Origin: Leuconostoc gasicomitatum LMG 18811
GTDB taxonomy: Bacteria; Bacillota; Bacilli; Lactobacillales; Lactobacillaceae
Direction: 5' to 3'
DNA length: 64,000 bases
Assembly: GCF_000196855.1 (NCBI RefSeq)
Contig: NC_014319.1
Coordinates: 744,001 to 808,000 of the forward strand
Shown here one piece after another: positions 15,753-64,000 of the stretch. Each line of letters begins with the position of its first letter. Position 1 is the first letter of the stretch. The notes below the pieces were generated by a model. That model was given only the letters and a program-made list of their open reading frames with translations. It ran no database searches and had not been told where the DNA came from. The translations under genes were made by a program, and so were the position numbers.

Positions 15753-15774
15753 TACTACAATATAAAAAATTAAT

Positions 15775-15945
15775 TTCACATAGAGGTCGCGATTGACATG
15801 AGTCGCTTGGTTAACCTGTTATCACAGGTTAATCAAGTAAAAGGGGATATCGCCGAAATGAATCGTCTTCAAAAGAGATATTTGTTGGGCTAATAGCTAA
15901 TAACTATTAGACTGTCGTTAGAAATAACGGTGAGCTATGGAAACA
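15775..15945 (+). ncRNA. Lysine riboswitch (L box)
   Basis: The core matches the L-box aptamer: AGAGGTCGCG at the 5' side, a P2 region, AAGGGGATATCGCCGAAATGA, TTGTTGGGCT, TTAGACTGTCGTTAGAA and GGTGAGCTATGG at the 3' side. P1 pairs CATAG (15779-15783) with CTATG (15935-15939). It precedes a terminator and lysA, so lysine binding should stop transcription of the lysA-dap genes. Together with the terminator this explains most of the 360-base gap between orf111 and lysA. Confidence 0.9.
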
Positions 15946-56748: not shown

Positions 56749-57150
56749 ATGATTCCTAAACGTGGATACTTTCAACCATTAGATATAACAGGACAAATAG
56801 GCTGGCTTTGGTGGTTTATATTGTTCATGGCCGGTATCATATTATGGAGTGAAACAACATTTAAATTAGAAATGATGCCAATCGTCTATCTCTTATTCAT
56901 GTTGATACTAGGAATTATAACTATTTTGCGTCGTCGTGTTTATGTTGCGGGCGCACAATTGTTTTTGGGACGCGTATTTGTCTCAGATTACGAAAAAATT
57001 TCTCTTACAACGATGGTTAACTGGCAACTAAATGGCCATGTACTATCTTTTACACGTGCTGGACGATCACGTAAATACTGGCTAAGTCAAAACATTGCAA
57101 ATCAAATTAAGGAATACATGGCTACTTATGACAAAAAAGATAACAATTAA
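56749..57150 (+). CDS. EbsA-like small membrane protein
   Basis: 133 aa. Two membrane helices (about 18-38 and 45-62) and a cytosolic C-terminal domain with RRRVYVAGAQLFLGRVF and GRSRKYWLS. Resembles the EbsA family found in lactic bacteria beside RNase H and rluD genes. The role is not known. ACTGGAGC precedes the ATG. The rluD start lies inside its 3' end. Confidence 0.55.
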   Translation: MIPKRGYFQPLDITGQIGWLWWFILFMAGIILWSETTFKLEMMPIVYLLFMLILGIITILRRRVYVAGAQLFLGRVFVSDYEKISLTTMVNWQLNGHVLSFTRAGRSRKYWLSQNIANQIKEYMATYDKKDNN

Positions 57151-58054
57151 TATTATTGATCAAATAGGTCGCATTGATGCAATTTTGGCAAAAGAAAATT
57201 TACCATATTCACGTACAACATTAGCAGAGTGGTTACAAACCGGACACATTTTAGTGAATGGGGTTCAAGTCAAAAGAGCCTATAAAGTAACAACGGGTGA
57301 TACAATCACCATTTTACAGCCAGAAGTGATAACAACTGAAATTATTGCAGAAGATATACCACTCGATATTATTTATGAAGATGATGATATTTTGGTTGTT
57401 AATAAACCGCAGGGAATGGTTGTTCATCCGGCTGCAGGACATAGCTCTGGGACACTTGTTAATGCATTACTTTTTCATGCGCCATTGTCGACAATTAATG
57501 GTGAATTCAGACCAGGAATTGTTCATCGTATTGATCGTGATACCAGTGGTTTATTAATGGTCGCAAAAAATGATCAGGCACATCAGGGACTTTCAGCACA
57601 ACTTAAAGCACATAAAAATGATCGTATTTATTATGCATTAGTGCGTGGTGAATTTGTTGAAAATTCCGGCACAATTAATGCGCCGATTAATCGTCATAAA
57701 GTAGATCGAAAAAAGCAGGCCGTGCAAGAAGGTGGCCGTGAGGCAATAACACATTTTGAAGTGATTGAACGATATGTTGGTTATACGCTATTGAAAGTAC
57801 GCTTAGAAACAGGTCGGACACATCAAATTCGTGTGCACATGACGTATATTGGTCATCCAGTTGTTGGTGATCCAGTTTATGGTTCTGCCCAAAATTTAGC
57901 TGGGGTCAAATTAAATGGGCAAATGTTGCATGCTAAAACCTTATCATTAACACAACCAAAAACTGGGGAAGAATTAAGATTTGATAGCGCATTACCTGCT
58001 TATTTTAAAGATGCTTTAGCAACCTTAACACCAATTATTCAAAACAATAATTAA
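57128..58054 (+). CDS. rluD: RluD family pseudouridine synthase
   Basis: 308 aa from ATG 57128, with AAGGA 18 nt away; the longer frame from 57095 lies inside the previous gene. S4 RNA-binding domain (15-70), then the synthase core with IVHRIDRDTSGLL (catalytic Asp), GRTHQIRVHM and PVVGDPVYG. Modifies large-subunit rRNA. The rluD-pyrR order is widespread in Firmicutes. Confidence 0.92.
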   Translation: MTKKITINIIDQIGRIDAILAKENLPYSRTTLAEWLQTGHILVNGVQVKRAYKVTTGDTITILQPEVITTEIIAEDIPLDIIYEDDDILVVNKPQGMVVHPAAGHSSGTLVNALLFHAPLSTINGEFRPGIVHRIDRDTSGLLMVAKNDQAHQGLSAQLKAHKNDRIYYALVRGEFVENSGTINAPINRHKVDRKKQAVQEGGREAITHFEVIERYVGYTLLKVRLETGRTHQIRVHMTYIGHPVVGDPVYGSAQNLAGVKLNGQMLHAKTLSLTQPKTGEELRFDSALPAYFKDALATLTPIIQNNN

Positions 58055-58064
58055 GCTATTTGAA

Positions 58065-58102
58065 AGGAGAAGTATGTTGTTAAAATAACATACGCAACTA
58101 TT
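58065..58102 (+). promoter_or_regulatory. SD, stem-loop, start arrangement of pyrR
   Basis: AGGAG (58065-58069) is 33 nt from the pyrR ATG. A 7-bp stem GTATGTT (58072-58078) with AACATAC (58087-58093) and an 8-nt loop lies between; subtracting it gives 11 nt. The stem also includes a four-codon frame (ATG 58074, TAA 58086-58088). Confidence 0.5.
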
Positions 58103-58630
58103 ATGACAAATAAAGAAGTGCTTGATAGTGCCTCGTTGCAACGTGCATTGACGCGTATTACATATGAAATTATTGAACGAAACAAGGGTGGCCAAGATTT
58201 AATTCTTGTTGGTATTAAAACGCGTGGCGAATTTTTAGCGCAACGTATTGCTAGTCGTTTAGAGCAACTGGAAGGTGTGAAAATTCCCGTTATGGCAATT
58301 GACATCACTAATTTCCGTGATGATGTTTTGAATCAAGAGGATAGCCTAGGCTTAAATGAGGCAGAAAAAAATAATATTGCTGATAAAAATATTGTTTTGA
58401 TTGATGATGTTTTATTTACTGGCCGAACAATACGTGCCGCATTAGATGCGCTGATACATATAGGGCGACCAAATAGTATTTCTTTAGCTGTTTTGGTAGA
58501 TCGTGGTCACCGTGAATTACCAATACGTGCCGATTTTGTTGGCAAAAACATTCCAACAGCTCAAAATGAAAAAATCAAAGTACTGGTTCAAGAAATTGAT
58601 GGCCATGATGCCGTCGAAATCGTACATTAA
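58103..58630 (+). CDS. pyrR: PyrR, pyrimidine attenuation regulator / UPRTase
   Basis: 175 aa. Phosphoribosyltransferase fold: [33 protein letters not shown] (PRPP motif, quoted by its 20 core residues) and [11 protein letters not shown]. PyrR binds UMP and pyr mRNA to promote termination. I find no PyrR-binding loop or terminator between pyrR and the carA-like gene. The ATG has no SD of its own. Heads pyrR-carA*-carB*-orf97. Confidence 0.93.
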
Positions 58631-58642
58631 GAGGAGAAGTAG

Positions 58643-58696
58643 GTGCACGGAGTTCAGAGTAATAATTTTACTGATGATGTGAATTTACAAGTGTAA
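58643..58696 (+). CDS. Putative 17-codon leader ORF before carA-like gene
   Basis: GTG at 58643, 6 nt after GAGGAG, 17 codons, stop four bases before the carA-like ATG. The carA-like start has no SD, so it may depend on reinitiation after this frame. It could be chance; two small hairpins lie in the same stretch. Confidence 0.35.
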   Translation: MHGVQSNNFTDDVNLQV

Positions 58697-58700
58697 AAAT

Positions 58701-59786
58701 ATGATACAACGTCACTTAATTCTTGAAGATGGGACGATATTTCCGGGACTTGGCTTTGGGGCACCGGCAACCACTTTTGGAGAAATTATTTTTCATACTG
58801 CCATGACTGGCTATCAAGAAATCATTACTGACCCGATATATGATGGTCAAATGATCGTTTTTGCGACGCCTGTTGTTGGTGCATCAGGCATTCATGCAGA
58901 AGCATATGAGTCAGTTAAACCCACTATTAGTGGCATGATTGTTCATGATTTGGCTGAAGTATCTGTTAACCGTCAGCGCCGTATGAATTTAGATCGGTTT
59001 TTAAAGCAACATAATATTCCTGGACTATATCAAGTTGACACGCGTCAACTCATTAGACATTTACGTGAAACTGGCCCACAAAAAGCGAGCATCGTTGATT
59101 TTGCGGATGAACATGCTATTGATCAATTGGTTGCAACTGTTTTGACAAACAAACAGGTGCAAAGTACTGCAACGCCAAAACCATATGCTAATCCTGGTCG
59201 TGGTCGGCATATTGTTGTCATTGATTTTGGTCTAAAACATGGTATTTTACGTATGTTGGGTGATTATGATGCTAATGTGTCAGTCCTACCCTATACGACC
59301 AGTGTGGCAGAAGTTCTGACATTGGATCCTGATGGTATTATTTTGTCTACCGGTCCAGGAGATCCTAGAACATTGCCAGATAGTGTTTTAACGTTAATTC
59401 GTGTTTTACAATCGAAAGTGCCTATGTTAGGAATTGGTCTAGGACATGAATTGTTTGCACTAGCAAACGATGCAGAATTAATGCCCCTACCATCAGAACA
59501 TCATGGTATGAACCATCCCATCCAAGAAATTATTACTCGCCAAATTTTTTATGCGATGCAGGGTCAAGGCTACGCGGTGGATGCGTCATCAATTAACCGT
59601 AAAAAACTATTTGTGACTTATCGTGATCTTGTAGATGGCGCAGTTCAAGGATTACGACATCGTGAATTCCCGGCTTTTAGTGTACAATTCTTTCCTGATG
59701 CTGCGCCAGGTCCGCTTGAAGCAACAACTGTATTTGCAGATTTCTTTGAAACGGTAGAAGATTATGTCGAACATTACAATCAATAA
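58701..59786 (+). CDS. carA: CarA-like protein lacking the glutaminase triad
   Basis: 361 aa, normal CarA length and fold: LILEDGTIFPG, AMTGYQEIITDP, VDTRQLIRHLR, LSTGPGDPRT. The class I amidotransferase site is destroyed: the elbow reads GIGLGHE (Gly246 for the nucleophilic Cys, GGT at 59436-59438, one base from TGT) and VQFFPDA replaces VQYHPEA (Phe331 for His, Asp333 for Glu). It cannot release ammonia from glutamine. Overlaps the next gene by 23 bases. Intact frame suggests a kept, non-glutaminase role. Confidence 0.88.
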   Translation: MIQRHLILEDGTIFPGLGFGAPATTFGEIIFHTAMTGYQEIITDPIYDGQMIVFATPVVGASGIHAEAYESVKPTISGMIVHDLAEVSVNRQRRMNLDRFLKQHNIPGLYQVDTRQLIRHLRETGPQKASIVDFADEHAIDQLVATVLTNKQVQSTATPKPYANPGRGRHIVVIDFGLKHGILRMLGDYDANVSVLPYTTSVAEVLTLDPDGIILSTGPGDPRTLPDSVLTLIRVLQSKVPMLGIGLGHELFALANDAELMPLPSEHHGMNHPIQEIITRQIFYAMQGQGYAVDASSINRKKLFVTYRDLVDGAVQGLRHREFPAFSVQFFPDAAPGPLEATTVFADFFETVEDYVEHYNQ

Positions 59787-62277
59787 TAAAATCAAAAAAA
59801 TATTATTTATCGGTGCTGGCGCAAATGATTTTGGCCGTGAAGCAGAGCATGATGCGGCAATATATCAAGTGATGCCGGAATTACGAGGGCATGGCATTGA
59901 AGTTTTTGTCGTTGATGAAAATCCTTACGCATTGTCGCTGGAAAGTTTGGCAGCGACAACTTTTTGGCAGCCCTTAACGATTGAAAACTTAAAAAAAATA
60001 GTCAAAGAAAATAACATCGATACGGTTGCACCTTTGTTTGGAGGTGAAGCATCGTTACGTTTGTGGGCAGAAGTCGTACAAAGCTGGTCGCATGGTGATG
60101 GGCCTGTACCAAATACACTTGGACTGAGTATTGAGATGTTACTCAAAGTGAATAATATTCCAGCCCTAACTGCGTATATGGCCAAAAATGGGTTACCGGT
60201 CATCAATAATTATGTGCTGAAAGCACAAGATGAAGCTAACGAGCTGTTACGTGAATTACAATTACCATTGATGATACGGGCTTTACATCCAAACCAAACA
60301 AATACACGCCATATTGTGGAACGTTTAGATGACTTTGAGGATGCTATTAATCTTGCAAAATTACAATCTGTTACGCAAGAAGTCATCATCTCTAAAGCAA
60401 TTAATGGATTAAAGGAAGTCAGTATAGAGGTATTGCGCGATTTTCGTGGCAATAAAATGCAGATTGGTGCAAGCGAGGATATGGATCCTATTGGCATTCA
60501 TACAGCAGATTCACTTAGCGTATCGCCCATTTTAACAATTCAAGATCAGTTGATTAGCAAAATGCGTGATTATGCATTTAGGGTAGCTGATATATTGCAA
60601 TTACAAGGTGTGATGCATGTACAATTTGCTGTTGATGATGATACAAACAAGATTTATATTATCAAAGTATCACCTTATATAGACCAAATGGCAACGCGTA
60701 TGTCATTAGCCACAGGGTATCCAACGATGCTTGTAACGATCAACTTAGCACTAGGTGTCGCATTAGAAGATATCGTTTTGCCACATAATTTTGGTAAAAA
60801 TACTGCCATAATGGAACCAATGATGGATCATGTGGTTGTAAAGTTGCCTGTGTTTCCGTTTGGAGAATTAGTTCAAGCAGGTGTGCATGTTAACCGACAG
60901 CTCAATAGTGTGCAAAAGTCCATCGGGACAACCCTTGGATTTGGCCGAACATTTATTGAGGCCTTAGAAAAAGCAATTCGCTCAGCCCATTTTAATAATG
61001 CTAGTTTTTCGCCAACAAATATGGCATATATTAATGATGATGAATTGATTCAGCAACTGATTCACCCACAGGATAACCGTGTGTTATTGTTAATTGAAGC
61101 TATCAAACGTGGTTATGAAATTGATGAGTTAGCAGAATTAACAGCTATTGATGAATTCTATTTTTATCAACTGAAACATTTGCATACATTGGAGGAAGAG
61201 GTTGAGGCGGATATCGATAGCATTAAATCCTTACGACGTGGTAAAAAATATGGTTTATCCGACGGATTACTCGCACGCTTTTGGCATACCGATTTTAACA
61301 TTATCAGAACTTTAGCAAAAGAGAATCATATTGACGTCACTTACAAGGCAGTTGAGCCTTCTGCTGGTGAATTTCCTGAAAACGCACGCCAATATTATGC
61401 GACCTATGAAGCGGAAAATGAATCGGTACAAATTAACGCAGACTCAGTGCTTGTTATTGGTTCTGGTGCTTTTAGAATGGGAGATGCAGCGTCAGGGGGA
61501 TATGCTACGACAATTACGATGTCTGAGTTACGCCGATTACAATACCCGACAATCATTATGAACAATAATCCAAGTGATGCAACGTTATTACCACATTTGG
61601 CTGATAAGCAGTACCTTGAGCCGCTTGAAATATCGGATGTTATGCGAGTAGTAGAGTTAGAAAAACCTCAAGCTATTGTGATCCCTGGTAATCGCCGTAA
61701 ACTCATTAAGGCTTTACGAGATCTAGGTCAGCAGGTTATTATTTTACCAAAGGAAAAGCATACACCAAGCGGTCCAAATGAAAATCAATCAGAATTTGCA
61801 TTGAATTTATTTTATGATGGGCAAAATATGTATCCGATAAATTTCACGCAACATATGGCAGGTGAAGTGCGTATTATTCCCCAACTGGCGAATTTACCAG
61901 AAGAAATAGCTCAAAAAGAAATAGAGAGTCCTGGTGTTTATCAAATTATTTGGTATCAAAATACGGTCACATGGATTGACACTGTCGATGCAGCAGATAT
62001 TGTTCATGATTCTTGGTTACGACCCATGCCATTTGGTCAAATTGCTTATATGACAAAAGTTATGGATGTACAATGGATAAGATTAACCATACGAGCGGCA
62101 TTGCATGAACTAACTGATCAAGATGTTACAACATTGGCAATGATTAACCAGCAACCTATTGTTCAACCATTAAGCATGATAGCTGCCGATGTGAATTATC
62201 GCCTGCATCTCCAACCTAACGAAGTGATTGATGGTACAAGATTTGAAATAGGTGTCGGTGTGAATTATTATGAGTGA
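59764..62277 (+). CDS. carB: CarB-like protein, eroded and shortened
   Basis: 837 aa against about 1060. The first half aligns with CarB (IGAGANDFGREAEHDAA, MDPIGIHTADSLSVSP, TTLGFGRTFIEAL), but the Gly-rich ATP loop (TLGGTGGG type) reads LHPNQTN near 174-180 and EVNPR reads K301-V-S303-P-Y305, so phosphate and metal ligands are gone. After the helical middle (to about 545) the second half starts with VLVIGSGAFRMG yet has only about 277 residues; ATP-grasp 2 and the MGS domain are missing or unrecognisable. Not catalytic as CPSase in my reading. Confidence 0.88.
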   Translation: MSNITINNKIKKILFIGAGANDFGREAEHDAAIYQVMPELRGHGIEVFVVDENPYALSLESLAATTFWQPLTIENLKKIVKENNIDTVAPLFGGEASLRLWAEVVQSWSHGDGPVPNTLGLSIEMLLKVNNIPALTAYMAKNGLPVINNYVLKAQDEANELLRELQLPLMIRALHPNQTNTRHIVERLDDFEDAINLAKLQSVTQEVIISKAINGLKEVSIEVLRDFRGNKMQIGASEDMDPIGIHTADSLSVSPILTIQDQLISKMRDYAFRVADILQLQGVMHVQFAVDDDTNKIYIIKVSPYIDQMATRMSLATGYPTMLVTINLALGVALEDIVLPHNFGKNTAIMEPMMDHVVVKLPVFPFGELVQAGVHVNRQLNSVQKSIGTTLGFGRTFIEALEKAIRSAHFNNASFSPTNMAYINDDELIQQLIHPQDNRVLLLIEAIKRGYEIDELAELTAIDEFYFYQLKHLHTLEEEVEADIDSIKSLRRGKKYGLSDGLLARFWHTDFNIIRTLAKENHIDVTYKAVEPSAGEFPENARQYYATYEAENESVQINADSVLVIGSGAFRMGDAASGGYATTITMSELRRLQYPTIIMNNNPSDATLLPHLADKQYLEPLEISDVMRVVELEKPQAIVIPGNRRKLIKALRDLGQQVIILPKEKHTPSGPNENQSEFALNLFYDGQNMYPINFTQHMAGEVRIIPQLANLPEEIAQKEIESPGVYQIIWYQNTVTWIDTVDAADIVHDSWLRPMPFGQIAYMTKVMDVQWIRLTIRAALHELTDQDVTTLAMINQQPIVQPLSMIAADVNYRLHLQPNEVIDGTRFEIGVGVNYYE

Positions 62278-62563
62278 TAGTAAAAAATACGACACACAAT
62301 TGTTTACTGGTGTCGTGGTAGAGCAGGACGCCTCGGGCCGGTATCGACCTAAAACTGGTGTTACACCTAATGTTTGGCGAACCGGAAAACATACTAAAGG
62401 AAAATTTAAACAAATTGGGCAGGTTTTTTTAACGGAAAAAGGCCAGGCGATAGCTGTGCTAAATACTGAAAAATTGGCTTTTAACAAACGACATAATTAT
62501 TCCTCGTTACAACGTTGGACCAGCCAACAAGTTAGTCTCGAATTGTTAAAAGATTGGTTATGA
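62270..62563 (+). CDS. Unknown 97-aa protein in the pyrR-carA*-carB* operon
   Basis: 97 aa, not recognised. Starts 8 bases before the carB-like stop, so coupled. Basic N-terminal half with GVVVEQDASGRYRPKTG and RTGKHTKGKFKQIGQ, beta-rich, no membrane helix or signal. Ends with SLQRWTSQQVSLELLKDWL. Its coupling to the pseudoenzyme pair is the only clue to function. Confidence 0.6.
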   Translation: MSDSKKYDTQLFTGVVVEQDASGRYRPKTGVTPNVWRTGKHTKGKFKQIGQVFLTEKGQAIAVLNTEKLAFNKRHNYSSLQRWTSQQVSLELLKDWL

Positions 62564-62574
62564 CAGTTAAATAG

Positions 62575-62627
62575 AAAAAACGTGCATATAGAAAATATTT
62601 TTGTTATTTTCTATATGCACGTTTTTT
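62575..62627. terminator. Long bidirectional terminator after orf97
   Basis: AAAAAACGTGCATATAGAAAAT is complementary to ATTTTCTATATGCACGTTTTTT across a 9-nt loop: more than 15 bp. It ends both the pyrR operon and the convergent MFS gene. Confidence 0.92.
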
Positions 62628-62647: not shown

Positions 62648-63883
62648 TTAGATTGATTCATGTTCTAAATGACGTGTTGATACATTAAATAATACTGCGT
62701 TGATAATGATAATGATGGTACAGAAAACAAATATACCACGATAATCAAATAGACTCGCAATTAATGCACCAAACATAGGACCCATGACTGATCCTAGTGA
62801 TTGAAAACTTTGGTTATAACTAAATATGCGACTGGTCATTTCAGTAGGTGAGTTTTTGGATAACAAAGTTTGGATTGCGGGTAACATTGTGGCATCACTA
62901 ATACCAACTAAAAAACGAAAAAACATCAACATACTAACACTTGTGACAAATGCTGTTGGGAGGAAGGCAATAACAGCTATCATAAAACCAATTTTAATCA
63001 TACGATCGGTGCCTAAATGGTCTCCGATACGGCCAAAAGGTGGGGCCGCTATGACAGTTGCAATACCGGGCATGGCAGCAACCATACCAGCAATAAAAGT
63101 CGTATTTGAGGCATTATGCATTAATTCACGAACAAATAAACTAATAATCGGATTGATGGCTGTATTCACAGTTTGAACTAACATGGTTGTCACAAATAGA
63201 CCAATAATCAACTGCTTATTTGGAATATGTGTCCAGAGATACTTAGTCGAAGCATTAGCAATACGGGGTGTTGATATATGAGGCGTTTCTTTGACTAAAA
63301 ATAATGTCAGTACAAATACTAGAAACAAAATGATACCGGTGATATGAAATGACGTACGGTAACTAAAAAAAGTTGCTAAAGTACCGCCAAATAAAGGGCC
63401 AATTAAATTGCCTGCAGTCATGCCAGTGACCAAAATACCCAGCGCTTTACCAGCATGTTTTTTAGGTGTTTGGGTAGCAACAAGTGCATTCGCATTTGAT
63501 ATAAAGCCACCCATGCCACCTTGTAGTGCTCGTAAAAAAAGTAATTGCCACACATTTGTCACATTGCCCATTAAAAATAGCACAATTGACATGCCAAGAG
63601 CAGCCCGTAATAGCATTAATTTTCGGCCTTTTCTGTCAGCGAGTTTGCCCCAAAAAGGTGACACAATTGCTGTCACAAGAAATGAAATGGCAAATACAGC
63701 ACCAGAATAAAAACTTAATTGATTTTTACTGAAAGTACCTAACGTATCAATGTAAAGTGATAAAAATGGCATCACTTCACTTAGAGCAACACCAGTCATA
63801 AACACACCAAACCAAAGAACAAAAACATTCTGTTGCCAAATTGGTTCAGAATCATCTAATTTGGTGTTATAATTTTCAGACAT
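62648..63883 (-). CDS. MFS multidrug transporter (MdtG/PmrA type)
   Basis: 411 aa from ATG 63883, 8 nt from AAGGA; the ATG at 63889 is 2 nt away. Twelve helices with motif A GKLADRKGRKLML after helix 2 and a second copy GRIGDHLGTDRMI, RALQGGMGGFISNANALVAT, and motif C-like GMTAGNLIGPLFGG in helix 5. Proton-coupled drug export is likely; substrates unknown. The last 110 bases of the window upstream hold only AT-rich DNA. Confidence 0.87.
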   Translation of the reverse strand: MSENYNTKLDDSEPIWQQNVFVLWFGVFMTGVALSEVMPFLSLYIDTLGTFSKNQLSFYSGAVFAISFLVTAIVSPFWGKLADRKGRKLMLLRAALGMSIVLFLMGNVTNVWQLLFLRALQGGMGGFISNANALVATQTPKKHAGKALGILVTGMTAGNLIGPLFGGTLATFFSYRTSFHITGIILFLVFVLTLFLVKETPHISTPRIANASTKYLWTHIPNKQLIIGLFVTTMLVQTVNTAINPIISLFVRELMHNASNTTFIAGMVAAMPGIATVIAAPPFGRIGDHLGTDRMIKIGFMIAVIAFLPTAFVTSVSMLMFFRFLVGISDATMLPAIQTLLSKNSPTEMTSRIFSYNQSFQSLGSVMGPMFGALIASLFDYRGIFVFCTIIIIINAVLFNVSTRHLEHESI

Positions 63884-64000
63884 TTGCATATTCCTTCTTT
63901 AAAAGTAATATTACTAGTTTATGCTTATTTGTAAAAATATGCACACTCTAAGACTGGCCTTGTGAAAATATTAAAATTTTATTATAATTAAATTACGCAT

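Follow-up and report, generated by a model that had tools for sequence, protein, structure and literature searches.

A conserved carbamoyl phosphate synthetase pair without catalytic residues, encoded beside pyrR in Leuconostoc gasicomitatum and related Lactobacillaceae

Why would a bacterium keep a carbamoyl phosphate synthetase (CPSase) that cannot work as one? In Leuconostoc gasicomitatum LMG 18811, a pyrR gene is followed by homologues of the small and large CPSase subunits, here called carA* and carB*, and by a small gene, orf97. We studied this locus in a stretch of 64,000 nucleotides, hereafter the window (G000:C1:744001-808000, part of a 1.95 Mb genome), and compared it with its counterparts in other Lactobacillaceae. 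CarA* and CarB* almost certainly form a conserved, ancient complex that is not an enzyme.

Catalytic residues and selection

The carA* gene (58701..59786, forward strand) encodes a protein of 361 aa that is matched by the hidden Markov models (HMMs) CPSase_sm_chain and GATase. A reading made from the sequence only had described it as a CarA homologue without its catalytic triad, and alignment to E. coli CarA bears this out: C269, H353 and E355 are replaced by G, F and D, and the window protein also carries Q273E and H312Q. Cys 269 is Gly in all 34 CarA* sequences read from the truncated family (21 genera, named for the shortened CarB* described below), and none of them retains His 353. The divergent CarA relatives of 12 further genera likewise have Gly at position 269 and lack His 353. 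A larger count of Gly at this position (81/81) carries no weight here, since one of the two patterns behind that search demanded the Gly; the counts just given are free of this bias. CarA* also has new near-invariant residues: G246, E250, D309 and Q316 replace the C, Q, E and E of the active enzyme.

The carB* gene (59764..62277, forward strand) encodes 837 aa, in which HMMs recognise the N-terminal half of CarB. The active CarB of the same genome has 1059 aa, so that 222 residues are missing, close to the earlier estimate of about 220. In the window protein, the allosteric domain and most of the second ATP-grasp domain are absent, and the core of this second, carbamate-phosphorylating domain is gone in all 21 truncated-type genera. 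Among the catalytic ligands of the first ATP-grasp domain, Q285 alone is kept in the window; R129 is lost and the others read E299K, N301S and R303Y. In a 54-row alignment of CarB*, position 299 is K or R, position 303 is Y or F and position 169 is R or K in every row, and E215 and H243 are unchanged throughout. R129 is absent in every genus read, and most rows have lost N301. The oligomerisation domain is the best conserved part of the protein. An AlphaFold model of CarB* (pLDDT 88, pTM 0.89) superimposes on E. coli CarB with TM scores of 0.83-0.86.

These alignments show a pair that has lost the residues needed to hydrolyse glutamine and to make carboxyphosphate, together with most of the carbamate-phosphorylating domain. 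The ATP-grasp of CarB* had been called eroded, which is right as to the loss of catalytic residues and wrong if random erosion is meant, since identical changes recur across genera. Because pocket positions are replaced uniformly from genus to genus, the pattern points to selected remodelling instead. The same uniform, conserved replacement could also be expected of an enzyme that performs new chemistry in a reshaped ATP-grasp or amidotransferase site. We regard such an enzyme as very improbable, given that the metal ligand E299 has become a basic residue in 54 of 54 rows, N301 is mostly lost and the nucleophile is Gly, with no evident catalytic replacement.

Known CPSases offer two comparisons. 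The pair shares its two-gene order, overall fold and oligomerisation domain with the glutamine-hydrolysing CarA-CarB enzyme (E. coli structure 1a9x; TIGR01368 and TIGR01369), but differs from the E. coli enzyme in its lost triad, its changed ATP-grasp 1 ligands, and its missing ATP-grasp 2 core and allosteric domain. CarA* nevertheless passes the NCBIfam equivalog cut-offs for an active CPSase small subunit, whereas the truncated CarB* falls below the cut-offs. Ammonia-dependent CPSases of the human CPS1 type also lack the glutaminase cysteine. Fold matches to this type were found (5dou and 5dot), but CPS1 has both ATP-grasp domains and is active, whereas CarB* is without the second.

The sequence-only reading had preferred a maintained pair to a decaying one, and had proposed a search for a second, intact carAB together with a survey of dN/dS and of frameshifts in relatives. 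Each of these supports maintenance strongly. An intact operon, pyrB-pyrC-carA-carB-pyrD-pyrF-pyrE, is present elsewhere in the same genome. At the carA* locus, the frames of pyrR, carA*, carB* and orf97 are all open, with overlaps of 23 bases between carA* and carB* and 8 bases between carB* and orf97, in agreement with the coordinates first described. Over 18 species of the genus, median dN/dS (Nei-Gojobori) was far below 1: 0.008 for CarA*, 0.030 for CarB*, 0.030 for PyrR and 0.123 for DUF7671, the family to which the orf97 product belongs. The corresponding medians for active genes were 0.041 for CarA, 0.023 for CarB, 0.066 for pyrB and 0.093 for pyrC. With 0.008 against 0.041, the dead CarA* is more tightly constrained than the working CarA.

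CarB* was found in all 19 genomes of the genus, at 72-98% identity, and is uninterrupted in 18; in none of these 18 good Leuconostoc genomes does the pair contain a frameshift or a stop. The sole break is in an 890-contig draft of the window's own species (G004, L007), where a TGA and a change of frame interrupt carB*, and carA* is shortened. It is probably an assembly error.

Slow decay of a redundant CPSase might have been proposed from the missing catalytic residues, the shortened CarB and the active copy elsewhere in most genomes. It is ruled out by the dN/dS values and the intact frames, and we assign it next to no probability. The same substitutions recur across genera, CarA* is under stricter constraint than active CarA, and the pair is retained even where the active copy is absent. 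A true decay case is available for comparison in another Lactobacillales family. In G406 (L240:1835-6096), the only CPSase found lies within a full pyr operon and has lost catalytic residues; CarA of G406 and its sisters has C269G and has lost H353, as in CarA*, but, unlike the CarA*-CarB* pair, these species include some (G440 and G468) with stop codons in carA. Because its catalytic residues are lost and it is nonetheless kept across most of the family under strong selection, the CarA*-CarB* pair must have some other job.

Distribution and origin

We searched 398 Lactobacillaceae genomes from 40 genera for CarB*, with a cut-off of E ≤ 1e-120 and a size of about 820-900 aa. It was present in 213 genomes and 20 genera, and a lower cut-off adds one more genus (g5). 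The carriers include Leuconostoc, Fructobacillus, Convivina, Weissella, Periweissella, Furfurilactobacillus, Secundilactobacillus, Lactiplantibacillus (including L. plantarum), Limosilactobacillus, Paucilactobacillus, Lentilactobacillus and Pediococcus. At 80 named loci we found rluD and CarA* in all 80, CarB* in 79 (the remaining locus runs into the end of its contig), pyrR in 59 and an adjacent DUF7671 gene in 18.

CarA with the Cys-to-Gly change is more widespread, occurring in 33 of the 40 genera, mostly at an lspA-rluD(-pyrR) locus. In genera seemingly without CarB*, the CarA at this locus is usually more divergent, with Gly for Cys and no His, and lies beside a CarB; the latter is full-length in g15 and g37. 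In the remaining seven genera (g12, g13, g25, g29, g30, g31 and g33), each seen in one genome, only Cys-retaining CarA was observed, and the g33 protein keeps the Cys with an altered catalytic His. In G028 (L265, g11), CarA lacks the catalytic Cys and His and keeps other glutamine-site motifs, and the adjacent CarB, read in part, is only moderately diverged; this arrangement looks like an early intermediate. In genus g10 (L280 and L281), the locus PyrR is 38-39% and CarA 32-33% identical to the window proteins, CarB is also very diverged, and no other CarA was found.

A further possibility is that the pair assembles with the active CarA-CarB and tunes or stabilises it. The retained CPSase fold, the oligomerisation domain that is conserved best in CarB*, and the presence of an active CarB in 163 of the 213 CarB*-bearing genomes would all suit such a helper. 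However, the other 50 genomes, including most of those in genus g16, have no active CarB. They rule out this role as a general one and leave it improbable overall; for the same reason the conserved role can be neither CPSase activity nor mere help to an active CPSase.

The gene order in other families indicates where the pair came from. In other Lactobacillales families, rluD is followed by pyrR and then by pyrB, pyrC, carA, carB and more pyr genes, with an active carAB. CarA* shares 50-53% identity with the best CarA of those families and about 40% with the active CarA of its own genome. In a CarA tree, all 21 truncated-type genera formed one clade (100/100), which the divergent forms joined with weaker support (91/78); together they grouped with the other Lactobacillales families and g12, apart from the CarA of the Leuconostoc pyr operon. 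The truncated forms were also one clade in the CarB tree (99/92), in which long branches make the deeper placement unreliable. The linker of CarA* has a motif, HAxDQLxAxVL, that g12 and several other families also show in their active CarA. We therefore rejected it as a new binding motif specific to CarA*; it is an ancestral mark, and it indicates the same ancestry for CarA* and the active CarA of those families. In genus g15, pyrR and carA are still separated by a permease-like gene. On these comparisons, CarA*-CarB* is a remnant of the ancestral Lactobacillales pyr-operon CPSase: the other genes of the operon were lost, and the pair was kept but lost catalysis.

DUF7671 and the neighbouring genes

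The last gene of the operon, orf97 (62270..62563, forward strand), encodes 97 aa. It had been listed as an unknown protein; the length stands, but it is not an orphan, since it belongs to the Pfam family DUF7671 (PF24710, 132 bits against a cut-off of 27). DUF7671 was found in 209 of the 398 genomes, 190 of which also carry CarB*, an odds ratio of 72 over genomes that are not independent. As functional proof this co-occurrence is weakened, being mostly that of one clade, and Lactiplantibacillus has the pair without DUF7671. The gene adjoins the pair only in Leuconostoc, Fructobacillus, Convivina and close kin, and our neighbourhood survey found no constant DUF7671 neighbour outside the Leuconostoc group. 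The predicted fold is small and beta-rich (pLDDT 88), and a fold search with this model gave no clear match in the PDB (E > 0.7). It is a reasonable guess that DUF7671 serves as a third subunit in Leuconostoc and its close kin.

Upstream of the operon lies rluD (57095..58054, forward strand), which encodes an RluA-family 23S rRNA pseudouridine synthase (NCBIfam TIGR00005, 318 bits). It is the constant gene upstream of the carA* locus, and lspA precedes it in many relatives. The strong terminator described after the operon corresponds to a terminator-like stem of 20 pairs at 62578..62624 with T runs on either side. Terminator-like in either direction, it is common to the carA* operon and a convergent MFS gene (62648-63889, reverse strand). 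In many genera, an NFACT/RqcH-like gene is convergent downstream of carB* (L117-L120, L123, L125, L128 and others). Elsewhere in the window there is a lysine riboswitch (15773-15945, forward strand; RF00168, 93.9 bits).

PyrR and a possible regulatory role

The pyrR gene of the locus (58103..58630, forward strand) encodes 175 aa and passes the curated PyrR model NF003548 (259 bits against a cut-off of 218). A genome search found it to be the only PyrR in each of the 19 genomes of the genus. The intact pyr operon has a PyrR-binding leader (Rfam RF00515) and no pyrR of its own. Given this leader and the single PyrR of the genome, the window PyrR should act in trans on the pyr operon. Other arrangements exist in the family; in G203 (g37), the pyr operon is flanked by two pyrR genes (L249:2973-3539 and L249:10216-10752).

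Over the 18 truncated-type genera compared, PyrR divergence correlates with that of CarA* and CarB* beyond what RluD accounts for (partial r 0.46 and 0.69, permutation p ≤ 0.001). Genus g10 was left out of this calculation, as its inclusion inflated the PyrR rate correlation. The correlated divergence is suggestive of a link between PyrR and the pair.

L. plantarum provides a second line of comparison. Two PyrR proteins are encoded in an L. plantarum-like genome, one within the pyr operon and the other in front of carA*; they are 64% identical. The order rluD-pyrR-carA*-carB* is the same as in Leuconostoc (L204, a named L. plantarum record, and L139); the differences are the additional PyrR1 in the pyr operon, where Leuconostoc has one PyrR in all, and the absence of DUF7671. 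PyrR2 of L. plantarum is a published regulator of the pyr operon in response to inorganic carbon (cited in PMC3582564), and the locus tag lp_1782 appears in PMC7911632, cited beside the evidence for a second PyrR in L. plantarum. Since L. plantarum has only two PyrR proteins, the one adjoining carA* is very likely PyrR2. Searches of the open literature for lp_1780-1784 and for inactive CPSases returned nothing relevant on a CarA*/CarB* pair next to PyrR2.

A regulatory or scaffolding role for CarA*-CarB* is probable, though by no means secure. The complex would assemble much as a CPSase does and, instead of catalysing a reaction, would bind a small molecule in its rebuilt glutamine and ATP-grasp pockets and relay the bound state to partners. 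PyrR, encoded directly upstream, would be the likeliest of these, and the complex may then tune PyrR control of the genes for pyrimidine synthesis and uptake to the supply of nitrogen or inorganic carbon. We put PyrR forward as the main partner only tentatively. The explanation as a whole, in which a pyr-operon CPSase was converted to a dead but conserved complex for non-catalytic ligand sensing, with PyrR as its most likely partner, is the best we can offer and has our narrow preference. A stronger version is doubtful: that CarA*-CarB* is a family-wide sensor, derived from CPSase, that controls PyrR in response to a CPSase-related ligand such as glutamine, bicarbonate, carbamoyl phosphate or a nucleotide, and that it is the missing inorganic-carbon sensor of PyrR2.

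Several observations weigh against PyrR-directed sensing. We searched for an RF00515 leader at the carA* operon and found none, while the pyr operon matches. RluD is a single and imperfect control for species divergence in the correlation given above. There is no pyrR at the locus in Limosilactobacillus and Paucilactobacillus. In one genome, G250, the order is lspA-rluD-carA*-carB, and neither a PyrR (E ≤ 1e-20) nor a second CarA was found; PyrR is thus not a universal partner. The bicarbonate- and metal-handling residues of a working CPSase are altered in the pair, so that there is no obvious case for the old site as a bicarbonate sensor.

Some of these points would suit a conserved function unrelated to pyrimidines or PyrR, with the adjacency of pyrR a relic of the pyr operon. 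The pair outlasts active CarB in the 50 genomes mentioned above, adjacent pyrR is absent from about a quarter of the named loci, and G250 manages without any PyrR that we could find. The lspA-rluD synteny is inherited and hence uninformative on function. Against an unrelated function stand the correlated divergence of PyrR, the retention of pyrR at 59 of the 80 loci, and the genomes without CPSase in which PyrR leaders persist on genes for uracil permease and nucleoside deoxyribosyltransferase, a salvage enzyme, so that a link to pyrimidines remains possible there. We consider the unrelated function unlikely, if a good deal less so than the helper role. The earlier suggestion of a regulatory or scaffolding complex, perhaps a ligand sensor, thus survives in part: with PyrR as partner, it fits the pairing of the genes, the frequency of pyrR as a neighbour, the correlated divergence and the PyrR2 literature, and it fails to cover the genera in which PyrR is missing from the locus and the genome in which none was found.

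A dead two-subunit CPSase has been retained in at least 33 of the 40 Lactobacillaceae genera sampled. Because CarA* scores above the NCBI cut-offs, annotation-based metabolic models and auxotrophy predictions would assign a CPSase to genomes that have none. The response of PyrR2 to inorganic carbon in L. plantarum is an old puzzle, and the adjacent CarA*-CarB* makes it testable.

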